From an uncultured Paracoccaceae bacterium (GTDB taxonomy: Bacteria > Pseudomonadota > Alphaproteobacteria > Rhodobacterales > Rhodobacteraceae), in assembly GCA_937895435.1 (NCBI GenBank), contig CALAXT010000027.1, positions 1 through 64,000 of the forward strand: a stretch of DNA of 64,000 nucleotides, written 5' to 3'. A program made the translations under genes and the position numbers. Shown one piece after another: positions 2,498 to 10,428 of the stretch. The stretch's first letter is position 1, and each line of letters opens with the position of its first letter. A model generated the notes under the pieces. That model ran no database searches, had not been told where the DNA came from, and saw only the letters and a program-made list of their open reading frames with translations.

Positions 2498-2521
2498 TGA
2501 AGTCGTGAATTGAATATGAAT

Positions 2522-2552
2522 AAAAAAGGGATGCTTTTTGCATCCCTTTTTT
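2522..2552. terminator. Bidirectional intrinsic terminator
   Basis: A perfect 13-bp stem, aaaaaagggatgc at 2522-2534 and its complement at 2540-2552, with a 5-base T loop and A/T runs on both sides. It can stop transcription from either direction. It lies beyond the exopolysaccharide operon on the minus strand and beyond the Imm8 gene on the plus strand. Confidence 0.85.
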
Positions 2553-2626
2553 AGCGCTTTCGTTCAGATCAGGAAAATTCATCTTTTAGTGTGGTTGCAA
2601 ACAAATTTGATAACCGCCTGCCATAT

Positions 2627-2658
2627 AAAAGGCTCCTGACGACATGCAGGAGCCTTTT
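2627..2658. terminator. Terminator at the end of the exopolysaccharide operon
   Basis: A perfect 12-bp stem, aaaaggctcctg at 2627-2638 and caggagcctttt at 2647-2658, with an 8-base loop. It sits 64 bases past the stop of the last YjbE-like gene on the minus strand. With the hairpin at 2522 it forms a tandem pair. Confidence 0.85.
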
Positions 2659-2721
2659 AGAACCTAATCAAACTAACTCACAGCCAACCTTAGTTGATGG
2701 CGTGATCCGACCTGTCGGTTA

Positions 2722-3081
2722 TCAATTCGACGTGGATGTCGTGGTTGATGAGCTGTCGTTGGAAACCGCAGCAGCCACAGCGGCAACAGCAGCGATGCCT
2801 GCCGCGATACCAGCCAAGCCCAGGCCACCAATGGCGCCCAAGGTTCCTGCTGCGGCACCTGCCGCTGCGGCACCGGCCCCTGCTGCGCCTGCAGCACCGG
2901 CGCTGGCGCCCGCACCGGCGCCCGCGCTTGCGCCTGTAGCACCAGAGGTCGCACCTGTGGTGCCTGAAGTGGCACCGGTTGTGCCTGAGGTGGATGTCGA
3001 AGACGCTTCCTGAGCGAGTGCCGCTGACATGGGTGCAAGTGCCAATGACGCAGCAAGAACGAGTGTTGTGATGTTTTTCAT
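2722..3081 (-). CDS. YjbE-like secreted low-complexity protein (copy 1)
   Basis: A 119-residue protein with a clear signal peptide (MKNITTLVLAASLALAPMSAALA, cleavage about 23) and then almost only Ser, Thr, Gly and Ala. A repeated GTTGATS unit spans about 33-50, an Ala/Gly-rich hydrophobic stretch about 50-105, and a Ser/Thr tail ends it. This composition and layout match E. coli YjbE, the small protein of the yjbEFGH exopolysaccharide operon, although alignment of such sequence proves little. The ATG is preceded by ggag eight bases upstream. It is the last gene of the run and a near relative lies just upstream at 3411-3710. Its exact role is unknown. Confidence 0.7.
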   Translation of the reverse strand: MKNITTLVLAASLALAPMSAALAQEASSTSTSGTTGATSGTTGATSGATGASAGAGAGASAGAAGAAGAGAAAAGAAAGTLGAIGGLGLAGIAAGIAAVAAVAAAVSNDSSSTTTSTSN

Positions 3082-3410
3082 TTTGGTTACTCCATATACA
3101 AATCTTTTTCAGGTTATCAAAATTAGCGTCTTGATAAAACCGGTCACGGCCACCTGATTTGTATCTTAAGTATGTACCGAATGATTTATTTTTAGGTTTA
3201 TAGATGCGAGAATTTGAAAAAATTTAATTGGTTTTTGCAGCAGATGAGGGCTGCTAGCTGTCTTTTTGTGGTGACGGTTGTTTTTGCTTTGGCGCAATAA
3301 ACAAGGCCCCCACAATTCTGTGAGGGCCTTATATTATTTTTGTGTTAATCTTGTTTGATCGTTTTGCACATGGGTCTAAGACCGAACCGCTGCTTGGGCG
3401 TATGAAACTA
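3082..3410. other. AT-rich spacer between the two YjbE-like genes
   Basis: About 330 bases without a gene. The left half, upstream of YjbE copy 1, is AT-rich and holds a 9-bp inverted repeat, atacaaatc at 3096-3104 and gatttgtat at 3156-3164, which could be an operator or an RNA hairpin in the leader of copy 1. The right half contains the terminator of copy 2 at 3303-3330. Copy 1 therefore probably has its own promoter here, but I cannot place it firmly. Confidence 0.4.
3303..3330 (-). terminator. Terminator after YjbE-like copy 2
   Basis: Arms aaggcccccaca and tgtgagggcctt (one mismatch) form a 12-bp stem with a 4-base loop, followed by AT-rich sequence on both sides. On the minus strand it lies about 80 bases after the stop of the 3411-3710 gene and separates the two YjbE-like genes into different transcripts or levels. 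Confidence 0.65.
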
Positions 3411-3710
3411 TCAGTTCGGCGTTGTGGTTGTGCTGTTTGAGCCGTTATCGATAACAGCGCCCACAAACACGACGCCGGCAACCCCAGCCGCAATTGCGCC
3501 AGCTGTGAGGCCTGTGCCCAGAACGCCAGTGGTTGTCGCTGCAGCAGCTGTAGTGGTTCCGCCAACGCCTGCTGCGGTGGTTGCCGTGCCTGTTCCAGTT
3601 CCTGTACCAGCCGCCGCGCCGCCTGTCCCAGCGTCTTGGGCACTAACCAATGATGCGCTGGTTGACAATGCAATGGCTGCGGCTGCCAAAATTTTTACAA
3701 AAGATGTCAT
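3411..3710 (-). CDS. YjbE-like secreted low-complexity protein (copy 2)
   Basis: A 99-residue protein with a signal peptide (MTSFVKILAAAAIALS then SASLVSAQ, cleavage about 25), a Gly/Thr-rich repeat of GTG units around 30-42, an Ala/Thr/Gly region, one predicted membrane-like segment (LTAGAIAAGVAGVVFVGAVI, about 70-89) and a Ser/Thr tail. The layout is the same as copy 1, but the sequences are only loosely alike. The start at 3710 is chosen over an upstream frame extension because gggag lies at the right distance and the signal peptide begins there. It follows YjbF by about 84 bases, so it belongs to the same exopolysaccharide operon. Confidence 0.7.
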   Translation of the reverse strand: MTSFVKILAAAAIALSTSASLVSAQDAGTGGAAAGTGTGTGTATTAAGVGGTTTAAAATTTGVLGTGLTAGAIAAGVAGVVFVGAVIDNGSNSTTTTPN

Positions 3711-3794
3711 ATCGGATGCTCCCAAAGAAATCACAACCTTTGGTAGCACATGGTGGCATTGGTGGAAAGTAAAAACTATCGAAAGAATGTATAC

Positions 3795-4445
3795 TTATGG
3801 ATAGAGAACATCAATCTGCACTGATTTGATCTCGGGGCTGATCCATTGTGTGGATCGGCGAATACTCCCGCCTTTTTCGAACCAATAGTGGTTTTCAAAC
3901 GCCACATCCGTGCCCGTGCAGCTTTCGCTGATATGACGTGTGCGATAGCTACGTTCGACGATTTCGATGGTTTCATCACCCATGGCGCGCACTTCACATC
4001 TGAGGGTCAGTGCCAGACCTTTGTCACGGCCATCAATATAATAATGTGATCTGGTCAGCGTGCCTGCCGCTTGCGCGAGCACATTCGCGGTGGGTGCATA
4101 GCTTGACATCAGGTCGTCGCCCAAGCCCCGTGTTGCGATCGCAACGCCATCACGCAGTGCGATTGTGGCGCCATCGGCGGCGACCCATGTCACTACTGGG
4201 CCGTTGACCGCCAGTTTGCCCAAAATTGCAGTCATTTTCCGGCTGTCGATGGCCACCTTGATGCGGGGCAGGGCGTCTGCCTCTAATCGGGCGCGGGTGA
4301 TTTGCGGCACGCTGTTGGTGCGCGATTGCATCACTTTTGAAAGATAGTCGCGCACGATGCGCGAATCAGCTGTGGCATCAATATCTGATCCACATCCCAC
4401 CAGTGCCAACAGACCGGCTGTGGCTGCTGCTGCTGTCCAATTCAT
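3795..4445 (-). CDS. YjbF/GfcB-family exopolysaccharide lipoprotein
   Basis: A 216-residue outer-membrane lipoprotein. The signal peptide ends in the lipobox LVGC, with Cys18 as the acylated residue. The body matches the YjbF/GfcB (DUF2886) type by context, length and features such as the RSYRT segment late in the protein and several paired Trp/Tyr strands. In E. coli the homologue acts with YjbH in export of a polysaccharide. The start at 4445 overlaps the YjbH stop as ATGA, indicating translational coupling; an in-frame start 18 bases upstream is possible but less likely. Confidence 0.8.
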   Translation of the reverse strand: MNWTAAAATAGLLALVGCGSDIDATADSRIVRDYLSKVMQSRTNSVPQITRARLEADALPRIKVAIDSRKMTAILGKLAVNGPVVTWVAADGATIALRDGVAIATRGLGDDLMSSYAPTANVLAQAAGTLTRSHYYIDGRDKGLALTLRCEVRAMGDETIEIVERSYRTRHISESCTGTDVAFENHYWFEKGGSIRRSTQWISPEIKSVQIDVLYP

Positions 4446-6574
4446 CGCAGCACCCTTTCCCATTGCGCGTCCATTCGTTTGGTGTGGTAATCCCGCACCA
4501 GTGCATTCAGCCGGCCGTTCACAGCCAGTCGCGCGCCGCCATCCCGCGTGACAGGGCGGATTGTCGTCGAATAGACTTTGCGTGATGAATAGCCCGTCAG
4601 CCAGTTTAGCGGGATTGTAAGATTGATCCCTTTGTCAAATGAGCCTTCACCAAAATCTTCGGCTGACATGTCAGTCAGCGTGGCAAAGGCACCGATGCGC
4701 CAGCCGCTGTCAAATTCGCGCGCCAATGTAAATGTGGCCCCGATATCCCCCGCCAGATACCGTCCAGCATCCAGTTGTGCCAGATAGCCCTCGCCAAATT
4801 CATAATATGCCGAAACATGGCCTGTCAGCACGCGATAGTCATATTCATCAAAGCCAAGCCGCTGATCGGTGTTGCGCTGCGCCACATAGTTCAGTTCAGC
4901 CCCAAGGGCCAGTTTGCTGTCGATTGGGCGCCACAGAACCTCGCCCGACATCCCACCAAACATCCGCTCTAAGTAGCCGCCGCTGAGCCGGGTATAGATG
5001 TTGCGTGCCGGGTGCTGGTACCATGCCAGTGTCATCGATTCCATCACAGGGGTGTCATTATCATTATACTTTGTGGCTTCAGAGCGGACGCGTTGCACGC
5101 TGGCCACTGTGTTTGAAGCACGGGCCTGATCCAAGTTGCCGCCTGCTTTTTGGGCAAAAGCACCCGACAAAATCAAATTCGGGCTGATTTCATAATTGCC
5201 GCTGAGCCGAACGCCAACATCCATCCGAACTGGGTTGCCGGGGTCAAAAAAGCTAAAGCGGGTAAAGGGCCGCAGCCCCCATGTCAGCGGTTGGCGATTG
5301 TCGTCGGATACCATTTCAGCAACACCGCCAACATCAGAATAGCTGACGCGCAGCCGCAAAGCGGCCTCGCCCTGTGGGGCGAATTCAAGCGCCTCAAGAT
5401 CTGAACGTTGCAGTGTGACACGGGTCAATGGCATGCCTTTGACCACAGGAATCAGATCAAATGTTTCCACCGATGCGGGCAAAACGCGCGATAAGGCGCG
5501 GGCGGCACGGCCGATTGCCTGCGCCTCGGCGCCAAAGGTTTTGTTGCGAAAACGCAACTCGGCCCGCGTCGCACTGAGTGTCAGACGCTCTAACATCATA
5601 TCATCGGCGGCCAGCAAGGGTGCCACTGCAGCTTTGATTTTATCATCAAGTCCGGGCACATTCACCCAATCTTGGGACCACATCTGGGGTTGTGCAGTTC
5701 GGCTGGGGCGCACGGCAACGGGAAAGGGGGCCATGCCCTGAATGGCCATGTTGCGTGGTCTGCGGCTTGGGTCGATCAGCAATTGGCCGGTGACGCCCAC
5801 CTCTGATCCATAGAGATAATAGGCACCAAAACGAAATCTCTCTGATAGTTGATAGCCCACACCAAAGTTCCAAGGGCTTTTGTGGATAAAGATATCGCGT
5901 GGCCCAGTCTCAGACGTATAGGCGTCAGACGAATATTCGGCTTTTAGCGATATTTTGTCGGTGGCTTGCCATTCGACACCGCCAAAGGGGGCCATTGGGC
6001 CGCGGAACCATTGTGCGTAATTGGCCTTGCCCCCCAGGCCAATATTATTGGTGGGGCGCTCGCCAAAAGGTGATCCGACAGAATTGTAAGACCCAAGCCG
6101 CCCCCAGCCAATCCCGCCTGTCACGCGAAACTTGGGCGTCAGGTTCTTTGTCGCTGCAACATATTCGCCAGAAAACAAACCAGTTCCCAGGAAATCCTGC
6201 AAGCCGATCGTCACTGATGGCAGGATTTCGCTTTCCTTTAGCAGTTGATAGCGCGCATCAAAGCTGCGGTCATAATAGGTGTCAAACCCACCAAAGTTCC
6301 AATTTAAAATCCCAGTGTAGCGAAAACTGCCCGACAACCGGGGGGCCAGCTGAAAGCTGAGCGTGGTGCGGCTGATACCGGCAAAGCGCGAGTGCGTGGT
6401 GGAGTATTCGCCATCAGGTGCCGGTTGGCCCGATGGCATATCGATCCCCCCTGCTGCACCATAAAGATTGAGCGTGGGGCGTGGAAACTCTTGTGCGCGT
6501 GCCGCGGCTGTTAGGGTTAGAACCGCCGCACCAAAAGCTGCAATTTTCACACAAACCCGTGTTACATCCACCAT
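4442..6574 (-). CDS. yjbH: YjbH-family outer-membrane exopolysaccharide protein
   Basis: About 710 residues, as expected for YjbH (DUF940). A signal peptide ends near residue 27 (AARAQ). After it come YGAAGGIDMPSG (about 38-49) and long runs of alternating amphipathic strands with paired Gly and Tyr, typical of a large beta-barrel. It is thought to form an outer-membrane route for a secreted polysaccharide with YjbF and YjbE. I place the start at the ATG at 6574, six bases after aggg; a TTG two codons upstream is the other option. The gene follows the sugar transferase by 83 bases and is coupled to yjbF. Confidence 0.88.
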   Translation of the reverse strand: MVDVTRVCVKIAAFGAAVLTLTAAARAQEFPRPTLNLYGAAGGIDMPSGQPAPDGEYSTTHSRFAGISRTTLSFQLAPRLSGSFRYTGILNWNFGGFDTYYDRSFDARYQLLKESEILPSVTIGLQDFLGTGLFSGEYVAATKNLTPKFRVTGGIGWGRLGSYNSVGSPFGERPTNNIGLGGKANYAQWFRGPMAPFGGVEWQATDKISLKAEYSSDAYTSETGPRDIFIHKSPWNFGVGYQLSERFRFGAYYLYGSEVGVTGQLLIDPSRRPRNMAIQGMAPFPVAVRPSRTAQPQMWSQDWVNVPGLDDKIKAAVAPLLAADDMMLERLTLSATRAELRFRNKTFGAEAQAIGRAARALSRVLPASVETFDLIPVVKGMPLTRVTLQRSDLEALEFAPQGEAALRLRVSYSDVGGVAEMVSDDNRQPLTWGLRPFTRFSFFDPGNPVRMDVGVRLSGNYEISPNLILSGAFAQKAGGNLDQARASNTVASVQRVRSEATKYNDNDTPVMESMTLAWYQHPARNIYTRLSGGYLERMFGGMSGEVLWRPIDSKLALGAELNYVAQRNTDQRLGFDEYDYRVLTGHVSAYYEFGEGYLAQLDAGRYLAGDIGATFTLAREFDSGWRIGAFATLTDMSAEDFGEGSFDKGINLTIPLNWLTGYSSRKVYSTTIRPVTRDGGARLAVNGRLNALVRDYHTKRMDAQWERVLR

Positions 6575-6657
6575 TTTCAACCCTTTTTTATCCCAACCTT
6601 ATTATGCAGACGAATGCTTAACGGCAATGCAGCATATGGCCAAAGATATAAAATCCT

Positions 6658-7266
6658 CTATCGCGCAAACATCCCAGTGATTGTGCGCCAGATCAACCAC
6701 ATATCCAGCGCCAAAGACTGGCGCTGGCAATATATCAGATCCAGCCGTGCTTTGCGCGGGATGCAGCGCTGGACGTAAACGCGTTCGGTTTCTTGTGGGG
6801 TTTTGCACGGCGCAAGCAGCCGTTCTTCGGTGCGGTGAAAGATCACGGTCGCCAGACCCGTGACGCCGGGGCGACAGGCCAGAACGCGGGCGTAAAGATC
6901 AGGGTGGCTGTCCACATAGCGGCGCAGCGGTGGCCTGGGGCCAACAAAGCTGATATCACCGCGCAGAATGTTCCAAAGTTGCGGCAGCTCATCCAATCGG
7001 GTGCGACGCAAGAACCGCCCCATTGGTGTGATCCGGGTTTGTTTGTCACCCCCAGATACGCCGCCGCTGTCCGCTGCGACATGCATGGTGCGAAATTTTA
7101 GCAGCCGAAAGCCCTGATCAACGCTGCGCATGCGCTCACCCGCGTAAAAGAGTGGCCTGCCTTGCAGCACCAAGAGTGCAAGCGTCAACCCAAGGATCAC
7201 CGGCCCCAATACGACACAAAGGGCCAATGCAAATAAGATATCGAACATACGTTTAGAAAAGGTCAT
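6658..7266 (-). CDS. Undecaprenyl-phosphate sugar-1-phosphate transferase, monotopic type
   Basis: A 202-residue phosphoglycosyl transferase (bacterial sugar transferase, PF02397). It moves a sugar-1-phosphate from a nucleotide sugar to undecaprenyl phosphate, the first membrane step in repeat-unit polysaccharide synthesis. One re-entrant or membrane helix lies at about 8-34. The motifs KFRTMH (about 57-62) and LDELPQLWNILRGDISFVGP (about 91-110) include the catalytic Asp-Glu pair at 92-93. It lacks the extra N-terminal membrane domain of WcaJ and so resembles the short PglC type. Its ATG at 7266 overlaps the stop of the epimerase gene as ATGA. Sugar specificity cannot be read. Confidence 0.88.
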   Translation of the reverse strand: MTFSKRMFDILFALALCVVLGPVILGLTLALLVLQGRPLFYAGERMRSVDQGFRLLKFRTMHVAADSGGVSGGDKQTRITPMGRFLRRTRLDELPQLWNILRGDISFVGPRPPLRRYVDSHPDLYARVLACRPGVTGLATVIFHRTEERLLAPCKTPQETERVYVQRCIPRKARLDLIYCQRQSLALDMWLIWRTITGMFAR

Positions 7267-8183
7267 GCGCTGTCCCCGCGCAGGGCTAACCATTGCCCCA
7301 GCATCGTGCCTGCGTCTGACTCTGTTGGCGCAAAACGATGCATGGCTTGCAGGCGCGCAGTATCAAGTGACAATGATGCCAGCGCTTGGGCGGGGGCTGG
7401 CGTGCGCACGACGGGCACATTCTGTCCGTGCTGGGCCAAAGCGGGCAAAAAGGCCGCCATATCTTGCGGTTCGCCGGGGCTTGCAATGTTGATGACCGGG
7501 GGCAATGCGGTTTGCTGGGTGCAAAGCGTTTCTAAAACTTGGGCCAGCGTGGCTGGGCCAATGTGGTTGCGCCGTGGCCCGTGTGTCTGGCCATCTGGGC
7601 CGATAAAAAGATCCAGCCTTAACGGATTGGCGCTGCTTGCGCCGTGCATATTGTCAAAGAACTGTCCTGCCCCGACCACGTTGCCAATCCGCATTTGGCA
7701 AATCTGGGTGGCAGGGTTGCAGCGCGCCCACGCGCTGCAGGCCTCTTCCATTGCCCATTTGGCATGGCCGTAATCAGTTATGGGGGCCGCAGGCGTTTCC
7801 TCATACGTTAAACCGGTGCAAGCCCCATATATTGCGGATGAAGAGGCAATAAAGACCTGTTGCACCCCGGATGCAGCGGCGGCGTTAAGCGTGGCCAGGG
7901 CAAGTGCGGAATTTTGTGCCAACTCTGCCCCTTGGGTGGCCCCGGCCATCAACAAGATGGTATCAATGCGTCCATCCTGTGGTTGGGTATTCAGCTGGTG
8001 CGCCAAGCTTTGCGCGCCGTCGGACAGTTGCCATTCCACCCAATCTGGCGCCGCATCCGGGTGGCTGGGCCGGGCCTGAAACTGCATCTTAAGGCGATTG
8101 GGGGGATATGCCTGCCAATAACGGCGCAGCATTTTGCCCACCCGTCCTGTTGCCCCCATCAAAAGAACGTGCCGTGCCGCCAT
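7263..8183 (-). CDS. NAD(P)-dependent epimerase/dehydratase family protein
   Basis: A 306-residue extended short-chain dehydrogenase. The Rossmann motif GATGRVG is at about 10-16, the conserved serines at 114-116 (IASSSAIYG) and the catalytic Tyr138-x3-Lys142 in YGHAK. The family converts nucleotide sugars (epimerase, dehydratase or reductase), which fits the sugar transferase whose start overlaps its stop. It begins seven bases after mtaB ends, so it may be transcribed with dapF-mtaB. The substrate is unknown; a role in making the sugar for the exopolysaccharide is inferred from position. Confidence 0.82.
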   Translation of the reverse strand: MAARHVLLMGATGRVGKMLRRYWQAYPPNRLKMQFQARPSHPDAAPDWVEWQLSDGAQSLAHQLNTQPQDGRIDTILLMAGATQGAELAQNSALALATLNAAAASGVQQVFIASSSAIYGACTGLTYEETPAAPITDYGHAKWAMEEACSAWARCNPATQICQMRIGNVVGAGQFFDNMHGASSANPLRLDLFIGPDGQTHGPRRNHIGPATLAQVLETLCTQQTALPPVINIASPGEPQDMAAFLPALAQHGQNVPVVRTPAPAQALASLSLDTARLQAMHRFAPTESDAGTMLGQWLALRGDSA

Positions 8184-8190
8184 CTGCCGT

Positions 8191-9465
8191 TCAGGCCTGC
8201 AGGGCGGTCAGCCCATGCCCAAGGATCTGGGCTGTGACGATCTGGCCCTCGGGTTGGTCGCTGTCAAACAGCACTTCGGTAAATTGTTCGGTGCGCCCAC
8301 GCCGGGCACCTTCCATCAAAATCGAGTGGCTTTGCCCAATTTGGCTTTGCAAATGTTGGGTCAGCCGCTCTTGGCCCAGGGCGCGCAGGCGCGCGGCACG
8401 GGCGCGGATTTCCCCGCCAGGCACGGCAGGCATACGGGCGGCAGGCGTGCCTTTGCGCGCGGAATAGGGAAAGACATGCAGCCATGTCAGCCCACATTCT
8501 TGGACCAGCCGCAGTGAATTTTCGAACATCTGTTCTGTTTCAGTTGGAAATCCTGCAATGATATCGGCGCCAAACACCATATCTGGCCGCAGACGGCGCA
8601 CCTCTTCGCAAAAGGCGATGGCATCATCGCGCAAATGCCGACGCTTCATACGTTTCAAAATCAGGTCGTCCCCAGCCTGCAAACTGAGATGAAGATGGGG
8701 CATAAGCCGGGGTTGGGTTGCAATGGCCTCCATCAGGGCGTCGTCGGCCTCAATCGAATCGATGGAAGACAGACGCAGCCGCGCCAAATCGGGCACCAGC
8801 CGCAAGATCCGCGCGACAAGATCACCCAAACGGGGCGCGGCGGGCAGATCTGCCCCCCAACTGGTCAGATCAACGCCGGTCAGCACGACCTCAAGAAATC
8901 CACGGTCTACCAGCCGCTTGATCTGATCTACCACAACCCCCGCCGGGACAGATCGCGAATTGCCCCGCCCGTAGGGAATGATGCAAAAGGTGCAGCGGTG
9001 ATCGCAGCCGTTTTGAATTTGGACGTAGGCGCGGTGGCGGCCAAAGCCATCGATCAAATGGCCCGCAGTTTCACGCACCGACATGATATCGTCGACCTGC
9101 ACCCGTTCACTTTGGCCAATAAAATCAGCCTGGCGTGCCAGCCGGCCCCATGTATCGGCCTGCATTTTTTCAGTGTTGCCAATAACATGGCTTACCTCGG
9201 GCATAGCGGCAAAGGTGTCGGGTTCGGTCTGTGCTGCGCAACCTGTGACGATCAGCGTGGCATTGGGGTGGGCATGGCGCAGCTTGCGAATTTCTTGCTT
9301 GGCTTTGCGCACGGCTTCGGCAGTGACGGCACAGGTGTTCACGATTACCGCATTGCCAAGGCCTGCACCTGCAGCCAGTTCCCGCATGGCCTCAGATTCA
9401 TAGGCGTTCAATCGGCAGCCAAGCGTGGCAAAGATAGGTGCACCGGATGGCGTTGCGCTGTTCAT
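8191..9465 (-). CDS. mtaB: tRNA t6A37 methylthiotransferase MtaB
   Basis: A 424-residue radical-SAM enzyme that adds a methylthio group to N6-threonylcarbamoyladenosine at tRNA position 37. Cys17, Cys45 and Cys76 of the N-terminal UPF0004 domain bind the auxiliary cluster. The radical-SAM cluster motif CDHRCTFC has Cys154, Cys158 and Cys161, and the following segment IIPYGRGNSRS is family-typical. The opening FATLGCRLNAYESEAM distinguishes MtaB from MiaB and RimO. A C-terminal TRAM-like part follows. Its ATG overlaps the dapF stop as ATGA. Confidence 0.93.
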   Translation of the reverse strand: MNSATPSGAPIFATLGCRLNAYESEAMRELAAGAGLGNAVIVNTCAVTAEAVRKAKQEIRKLRHAHPNATLIVTGCAAQTEPDTFAAMPEVSHVIGNTEKMQADTWGRLARQADFIGQSERVQVDDIMSVRETAGHLIDGFGRHRAYVQIQNGCDHRCTFCIIPYGRGNSRSVPAGVVVDQIKRLVDRGFLEVVLTGVDLTSWGADLPAAPRLGDLVARILRLVPDLARLRLSSIDSIEADDALMEAIATQPRLMPHLHLSLQAGDDLILKRMKRRHLRDDAIAFCEEVRRLRPDMVFGADIIAGFPTETEQMFENSLRLVQECGLTWLHVFPYSARKGTPAARMPAVPGGEIRARAARLRALGQERLTQHLQSQIGQSHSILMEGARRGRTEQFTEVLFDSDQPEGQIVTAQILGHGLTALQA

Positions 9466-10346
9466 AAAAGGGCCTGCAAAAACGTAGCGCTTAGCACGCC
9501 ATCAAAGACATGCATGGTTGGGCCGGTCATCCAAACACCGTCTTCGCGCCAGTCAATTTGCAAAAGACCACCATCAACATGAACGCTAACGGCCCGATCT
9601 GTCAGCCCGCGTCGCGCTGCTGCAACCGCAGCGGCGCAAGAACATGACCCTGATGCCAACGTGACACCAGTGCCGCGTTCCCATATTCGCAGGCGGATGG
9701 TTTGGCGGTCAAGAATTTGGACAAATTCAACATTGGTGCGTTCAGGAAACAATGGATGATGTTCAATCTTTGCGCCATCTGCCTCAAGCGCGATCTGTGC
9801 GATATCATCGACAAAAAACGTGCAATGCGGGTTGCCCATACCAGTGGCTGTGGGCGCACCCTCAATGGGCAGGTGCAGTGTGTTCATCGGGTGGGCCAGT
9901 GGCACATCGGCCCAATCCAGCAGTGGTGCCCCCATATTGACACGCGTCATGCCCCCGCCTGCATCCTCTGCCAACAAAATGCCACGAGCGGTGCGAATGC
10001 GCAGACGGGTCTTGCCTGTCGCATCCATTTCCGTCCGGGCAATGCAGCGGGTGGCATTACCACATGCAGCCGAAGCGGACCCGTCCGCGTTGAAAAACGA
10101 AATACTCAAATCGCAAGTGCTGGCGCCCTCAGGCGTGCTATGCTCAGACACGCTGCCGTCAGACACCAGCGCCAGTTGATCAAAACCAACGCCACGGTGG
10201 CGATCACCCAAGGCGCAGATCATCGAACCACTCAGCACGTCACACGCAGCTGATGACAAATCGCGAGCATCGATGACCACAAAGTCATTGCCCAAACCAT
10301 GCATCTTGCGAAACGCGAGACCCTGCGAGATATCCCAAATATTCAT
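9462..10346 (-). CDS. dapF: Diaminopimelate epimerase
   Basis: A 294-residue protein that converts LL- to meso-diaminopimelate for lysine and peptidoglycan. KMHGLGNDFVVID (about 14-26) and the first catalytic cysteine, Cys95 in AACGNATRC, are present. The second active-site block reads ERGTGVTLASGSCSC (about 223-237): the usual Cys of 'ACGSG' is Ser232 and a Cys appears at 235. Whether this is a lineage variant or a change in activity is open. An ATG at 10346 is chosen because the upstream extension is not conserved in the family. It is coupled to mtaB by an ATGA overlap. Confidence 0.9.
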   Translation of the reverse strand: MNIWDISQGLAFRKMHGLGNDFVVIDARDLSSAACDVLSGSMICALGDRHRGVGFDQLALVSDGSVSEHSTPEGASTCDLSISFFNADGSASAACGNATRCIARTEMDATGKTRLRIRTARGILLAEDAGGGMTRVNMGAPLLDWADVPLAHPMNTLHLPIEGAPTATGMGNPHCTFFVDDIAQIALEADGAKIEHHPLFPERTNVEFVQILDRQTIRLRIWERGTGVTLASGSCSCAAAVAAARRGLTDRAVSVHVDGGLLQIDWREDGVWMTGPTMHVFDGVLSATFLQALL

Positions 10347-10428
10347 GGAATGTCTTCTAGCTGACGCCACAGATTTTGGCCAGATATTGGTTTTTCTATC
10401 TAATCGCACCCCGCAGGGCGATTTGCCC

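Follow-up and report, generated by a model that had tools for sequence, protein, structure and literature searches.

Gene organization of the locus

We analysed the first 64,000 nucleotides (positions 1 to 64,000, forward strand) of contig CALAXT010000027.1 from the genome of an uncultured Paracoccaceae bacterium (assembly GCA_937895435.1). This stretch is called the window, and it belongs to contig C27 of genome G000 in our numbering; coordinates without a contig name are those of the whole window. The subject of the study is a run of six minus-strand genes, which is understood as a GfcABD/YjbEFH-type (GfcD/YjbH-type) outer-membrane export locus, ordinary for its bacterial family. An initial annotation of this DNA had placed a yjb-type export locus with the same six genes here, and the assignment is borne out by Pfam matches for four of them and by a profile of our own for the two small proteins, named E2 and E1:

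7263-8183, minus strand: short-chain dehydrogenase/reductase (SDR)-family NAD(P) sugar epimerase/reductase, 306 aa; PF01370 Epimerase, 60.5 bits
6658-7266, minus strand: PglC-type small monotopic phosphoglycosyl transferase, 202 aa; PF02397 Bac_transf, 173 bits
4442-6580, minus strand: yjbH, two-barrel outer-membrane protein; PF06082, 680 bits; Sec signal peptide by eye
3795-4445, minus strand: yjbF, GfcB/YjbF lipoprotein; PF11102, 123.6 bits (cut-off 25.9); lipobox LVGC by eye
3411-3713, minus strand: E2, YjbE/GfcA-like small secreted protein, about 100 aa; profile match, E 3.8e-11
2722-3081, minus strand: E1, second YjbE/GfcA-like small secreted protein, 119 aa; profile match, E 3.1e-7

All six reading frames are open and their overlaps are kept. 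The run had been described as fused by ATGA overlaps, which holds for epimerase/transferase (7263-7266) and yjbH/yjbF (4442-4445), but not for transferase and yjbH, which are separated by a 77-base gap.

An export machine that does without yjbG

YjbH was found in 171 of the 295 family genomes (158 of the 260 good ones), whereas GfcC/YjbG (PF06251) was present in just one of the 295 and in none of the 260, with the E. coli control matched. The family's yjbH loci therefore do without yjbG as a rule, and its absence from the present run, where the initial annotation had correctly found it missing, is unremarkable; PF06251 had no match anywhere in the bacterium's own genome. For comparison of gene order, 60 unnamed loci (nearest relatives or top scorers) and 80 named loci (the best 80 of 574) were drawn, with G001, G004, G032 and G304 left out of the unnamed set and G114 and G212 out of the top scorers; after removal of four exact duplicates, 137 distinct loci were compared, and the fractions given below apply to this set of loci and not to the family at large. 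A first scan for related loci had given no match. In the 137 loci, yjbF is present in 135, the two misses being L060, where the stretch ends at that place, and L176. The nearest named relatives of the YjbH itself are from Rhodobacteraceae/Paracoccaceae, at 55-56% identity.

Besides its PF06082 match, YjbH has an AlphaFold model of two barrels (mean pLDDT 87.3, pTM 0.83), with barrel matches at residues 37-271 and 429-678. When Foldseek matches were realigned, the best match for residues 31-269 was FapF, an amyloid exporter (Z 16.3 over 190 residues, 3.3 A), and residues 425-680 matched CymA (Z 13.4) and, lower, BcsC (Z 10.0). With whole YjbH as query, the 50 Foldseek matches listed were to other barrels, and FapF emerged only on a second look, confined to Foldseek's own list. 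YjbF had no PDB sequence match at E<=0.01.

A varied family of small proteins linked to yjbH

Small proteins at the places after yjbF were collected by a composition-based survey and then by profiles, giving 88 across the 137 loci. They share a build in which a Sec-like signal and a variable linker are followed by a hydrophobic stretch (best 19-residue window) ending 10-20 residues before the C terminus, and then by a cluster of acidic, Ser, Gly and Asn residues, often with a Thr run. In E2 the best such window covers residues 69-87, followed by DNGSNSTTTTPN, and in E1 residues 88-106, followed by SNDSSSTTTSTSN. Three consecutive threonines (TTT) occur within the last 15 residues of 48 of the 88 proteins compared with 36 of 8576 control small open reading frames (ORFs), a difference to be read with the seeds' bias to Thr in mind because the first survey chose Ala/Gly/Thr/Ser/Val/Pro-rich proteins. 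Tails carry Asp or Glu in 76 of the 88 and are free of Lys and Arg in 74, the latter speaking against a tail in the cytosol. Aromatic residues make up a mean of 1.8% of the mature proteins. By strand, TTT tails are found in 48 of 66 copies encoded on the yjbH strand and in 0 of 22 on the opposite strand. The opposite-strand proteins (L085, L068, L075, L100, L104, L107, L114) appear as a second subtype, of 22 members.

Neither E1 nor E2 reached the cut-off of any Pfam or NCBIfam family. The Pfam YjbE model (PF11106), while matching E. coli, had no match at E<=1 in the own genome or among 21 aligned small proteins. Our profile, of which E1 and E2 are themselves rows, gave 19.9 bits for E. coli YjbE and 18.7 bits for GfcA, scores that no shuffle reached out of 500 made from each protein with the signal peptide kept (best 14.1 and 15.8 bits, respectively). 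The small proteins are thus predicted to belong with YjbE/GfcA, as the initial annotation had it for the pair, by a shared profile that goes beyond composition and by their place as gene neighbours of yjbF.

The linkage to yjbH extends to loci and genomes outside the profile. In the 76 loci that supplied no seeds, of which the named ones may nevertheless be closely related to seed loci, all 49 profile matches among 9730 ORFs adjoin yjbH and 25 of them are TTT-tailed. Whole-genome searches gave 40 matches at E<=1e-6, 21 of them rows of the profile; 36 of the 40, and 15 of the 19 non-members, lie within 6 kb of a yjbH included in the comparison. With the 18 member genomes set aside, yjbH is present in 16 of 17 genomes having a profile match versus 153 of 277 (p 4e-4). 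Weaker matches (to E 0.01), many of them partial matches in long proteins, were left unused. The exceptions to adjacency are G138:C58, G187:C1:2076319, G216:C489 and G106; G106 has no YjbH match, and the matches listed do not give the location of yjbH in G216 or of a second yjbH that G138 may have.

Copy number and probable separate termination

At least one YjbE-like copy is present in 74 of the 128 loci having 3.5 kb downstream, as a single copy in 66 and as two or three copies in 8 (window, L157, L162, L180, L184, L085, L096, L109). On the yjbH tree (FastTree, with good support for 71 of 134 inner branches) the eight multi-copy loci need 8 separate changes, and the label is unclustered, given that shuffled labels need 7.8 on average. 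Conservation across relatives, as anticipated for the pair, therefore applies to the single copy, a common part of the locus, whereas the pair is lineage-specific. Between E1 and E2 no DNA similarity beyond chance was found, so no recent duplication is seen.

The surroundings of the two small genes, together with the genes upstream of the run, are as follows:

8191-10409, minus strand: mtaB-like radical-SAM gene and dapF, immediately upstream and part of the run
3296-3338, minus strand: hairpin, likely E2 terminator; -25.5 kcal/mol, z -6.0, 0/200 shuffles as stable
3082-3410, no strand: AT-rich E2-E1 gap, 38% GC
2626-2659, minus strand: hairpin, likely E1 terminator; -23.2 kcal/mol (71 bases folded), z -3.2, 0/200 shuffles as stable
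2521-2553, minus strand: further hairpin with T run beyond E1; -22.6 kcal/mol, z -6.2; in consensus scan

The separate terminators suggested for E2 and E1 are supported by the hairpin after each gene; a terminator consensus scan listed only the third hairpin (2521-2553) and neither of those two, and its total for the window was no higher than in shuffles (7 versus 7.9), so that separate termination is likely, not shown. The gap at 3082-3410 would leave room for a separate E1 promoter. In L096, with three copies, stable hairpins follow copies 1 and 2, without clear T runs.

Sugar enzymes and a displaced dehydratase

The monotopic transferase is rightly called PglC-type, since it carries PF02397 without a large N-terminal region and has PglC 8e37 as its best PDB match (E 4e-23); it would be expected to load the first sugar phosphate onto undecaprenyl phosphate. 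The SDR enzyme, whose nearest PDB sequences are generic SDR epimerases, probably follows a 4,6-dehydratase as 4-ketoreductase or epimerase. Its gene lies directly upstream of the transferase gene in 42 of the 59 loci having a transferase nearby. What cannot be seen from the window is that in relatives epimerase and transferase often accompany a FlaA1/CapD-type dehydratase that is displaced here. Of 116 loci with 4.5 kb upstream, 53 have a dehydratase homologue immediately ahead of yjbH on the same strand, and within 6 kb these 53 include a transferase in 37 and an epimerase in 34. Three dehydratases of yjbH loci proved to be FlaA1/CapD-type (PF02719 at 361-374 bits, 629-649 residues). The window locus is the only one of the 116 with a transferase <=300 bases from yjbH and no dehydratase.

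One protein of the own genome matches PF02719 strongly (371 bits, C75:29896-30771), and three match it weakly (33-43 bits). The seven dehydratases of yjbH loci that match the strong one best share 57.6-59.5% identity with it, and its median identity to the dehydratases of these loci (56.6%) is similar to that among those themselves (58.5%); it is displaced from the operon onto another contig, C75. The gene (L125:9746-11857, G000:C75) lies about 100 bases from the contig end. A tRNA-like stretch noticed by eye beside it was not found by ARAGORN. The dehydratase-reductase-transferase set has its model in the known pathways WbpM/PglF, WbpV/WreQ and PglC/WreU, by analogy to which the enzymes would make an undecaprenyl-linked 6-deoxy-N-acetylhexosamine (HexNAc) primer.

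Neighbouring genes

The run does not start at 8183, where the initial annotation had set its limit: only 7 bases separate the end of mtaB from the epimerase gene, and mtaB is joined to dapF by another ATGA overlap, so that the boundary at 8183 is arbitrary. Within the stretches compared, mtaB/dapF lies beside yjbH in 1 of 137 loci, that of the window. A transposase gene (PF13701, 467 bits) occupies 150-1502 on the plus strand, close to where contig C27 begins, and may be the reason why the assembly broke there. An immunity-type gene (PF15586 Imm8, 107.8 bits) occupies 1849-2253 on the plus strand, and 2284-2499 on the minus strand holds an open 72-residue fragment, by eye like the end of an outer-membrane transporter barrel, with no Pfam match at E<=0.1.

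Discussion

Based on the collective evidence, the locus is interpreted, with a probability of roughly 60%, as an export locus for a surface polysaccharide that is joined to glycan-starting enzymes and whose small proteins are exported. The observation of the initial annotation is confirmed, and its interpretation is partly supported. The dehydratase on C75 would provide a 4-keto-6-deoxy HexNAc nucleotide, to be reduced or epimerised by the SDR enzyme, and the transferase, judged by its family, would put the resulting sugar on the lipid carrier. The chain may then leave through YjbH, a proposed pore, together with the lipoprotein YjbF at the outer membrane. The Sec-exported YjbE-like pair could most likely act as cargo or glycan anchors, leaving with the polymer or holding it, in amounts that the pair's own terminators might set apart from those of the machine genes. 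The small proteins read more as an exported product than as a machine part because they are varied, linked to yjbH, multiplied on separate branches, and equipped with mostly acidic tails free of Lys and Arg.

Published work, cited from the portions of each paper available, is consistent with such a machine. GfcB and GfcC interact with GfcD (PMC8592465, PMC9603273), loss of any gfc gene disrupts the capsule phenotype (cited in PMC8592465), and GfcD has been proposed as an exporter of lipid-anchored chains (PMC11494523). E. coli sedimentation resistance was linked to anchored colanic acid that is not attached to lipid A, the yjb product reportedly being a different polysaccharide (PMC8117528). 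The yjbE mRNA is reported to be more abundant than that of yjbFGH through stability (PMC8208086, citing Ferrieres 2007), which fits separate dosing. In the portion of PMC6941253 available, the sole use of yjbE is to report on the Rcs system.

Several results weigh against our interpretation. At the level of polymerization, neither Wzz (PF02706; controls matched 8/14) nor Wzy_C (PF04932; controls 9/14) had a match in the own 99.7% complete genome, results that leave ABC (ATP-binding cassette) and synthase routes unsearched; a search with PF13425 matched no control genome and carries no weight either way. The first YjbH barrel matches the sugar porin KdgM nearly as well as FapF (Z 15.7 versus 16.3, a tie). 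By profile, E is absent from 54 of the 128 loci, so that not every YjbH locus has it. Finally, an association between E and the dehydratase, suggested by raw tables (where the dehydratase is present, 43 of 58 loci have same-strand E and 35 of 58 TTT-tailed E; where it is absent, 12 of 64 and 5 of 64 do; Fisher p 7e-10 and p 4e-10, respectively), reduces to only 7 independent pairs on the yjbH tree, with sign test median p of 1 and 0.5, and is not claimed. The same genome keeps the initiating transferase and YjbH without a Wzz or Wzy_C match.

Alternative roles for E2 and E1 differ in how they accommodate these data. It is possible, although we consider the odds well short of even, that they are matrix proteins which self-assemble after passage through the putatively FapF-like first barrel, the polysaccharide taking the second. 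FapF as the best fold match of residues 31-269 suits this idea, as do gene multiplication on separate branches and the hairpin after each copy, both apt for dosing apart from the machine, and amyloid export by a FapF-like barrel has been proposed in print, the available text not naming YjbE/GfcA as cargo (PMC9603273). Yet KdgM ties with FapF, a FapF-like fold is no proof of cargo, and the mature proteins are poor in aromatic residues. Rather doubtful in our judgement is a role in the inner membrane, where the small proteins would assist the export machine or regulate it: they have one hydrophobic stretch, and RefSeq labels E. coli GfcA an inner membrane protein, yet once the signal is cleaved the tail would face the cytosol, a placement that its mostly acidic composition, in most copies free of Lys and Arg, speaks against.

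Unlikely, too, is the proposal that the proteins are acceptors whose Ser/Thr tails become O-glycosylated with the polysaccharide, the anchored glycoprotein then being exported by YjbH. Thr-rich tails and the presence of a PglC-type initiating transferase among the genes of the run would agree with it, as would the published proposal for GfcA, in which Ser/Thr residues are modified by O-antigen before transfer to GfcD (PMC8592465, in the part available); the unmatched Wzy_C and the opposite-strand copies devoid of TTT tails argue against it. We think it very improbable that the locus is decaying and the run vestigial. Loss of the dehydratase from the operon, with a transferase <=300 bases from yjbH and no dehydratase in this locus alone among the 116, the insertion sequence element and gene fragments next door with a transposase at the contig start, and the unmatched Wzz and Wzy_C would all fit decay, but six open frames whose overlaps persist do not, and neither does the survival, elsewhere in the genome, of a dehydratase belonging to that group.

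Returning to the export reading, its most specific form would have YjbE/GfcA as polypeptide cargo of the FapF-like YjbH/GfcD barrel, leaving with, and holding, a polysaccharide passed by the second barrel, a speculation with perhaps little chance of being right in full. If this holds, how much protein the matrix contains would be tuned by the window's two copies, each with its own terminator, and in relatives by repeated multiplication of the gene. Lastly, our study has importance in giving comparative evidence that the small proteins form a varied family, tied to yjbH, whose gene has multiplied on separate branches. The E. coli counterparts of YjbE and YjbH, GfcA and GfcD, are described as entirely uncharacterized in the available portion of a 2024 paper (PMC11494523), and among the titles listed by a literature search, subscription papers aside, none links YjbE to Rhodobacteraceae. 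A profile reaching proteins that Pfam's YjbE model misses, together with natural multi-copy loci, offers a direct route to the role of YjbE/GfcA.

Comparison with known systems

Like E. coli yjbEFGH, the window locus encodes YjbH, YjbF and a YjbE-type small protein and has overlapping machine genes; unlike it, the locus lacks yjbG, includes transferase and SDR enzyme in the run, and has its E genes last and doubled, not first and single. With the E. coli group 4 capsule cluster gfcABCDE-etp-etk it shares GfcA-, GfcB- and GfcD-type proteins, whereas in the own genome GfcC is lacking, a PF02706 gene was not found, and one outer-membrane polysaccharide export (OPX; GfcE/Wza) gene lies apart on C53. 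The Wzc/Etk-type kinase that marks such a capsule carries PF02706, the domain unmatched there. The OPX gene (L126:10093-11268, G000:C53; 391 aa, Poly_export and SLBB) is single and unlinked; it sits between RibD and a riboflavin-synthase-like gene. The Pseudomonas amyloid exporter FapF resembles the first barrel of YjbH in predicted fold (Z 16.3), to which YjbH adds a second barrel and a middle domain. A parallel in both gene content and gene order is the Rhodobacteraceae module epimerase-transferase-dehydratase-yjbH-yjbF-yjbE (Sulfitobacter L153, Phaeobacter L179, Leisingera L208, Tateyamaria L162), from which the window differs in its displaced dehydratase and its attachment to dapF-mtaB; two E genes are common to the window and Tateyamaria L162, and are not seen in L153, L179 and L208.

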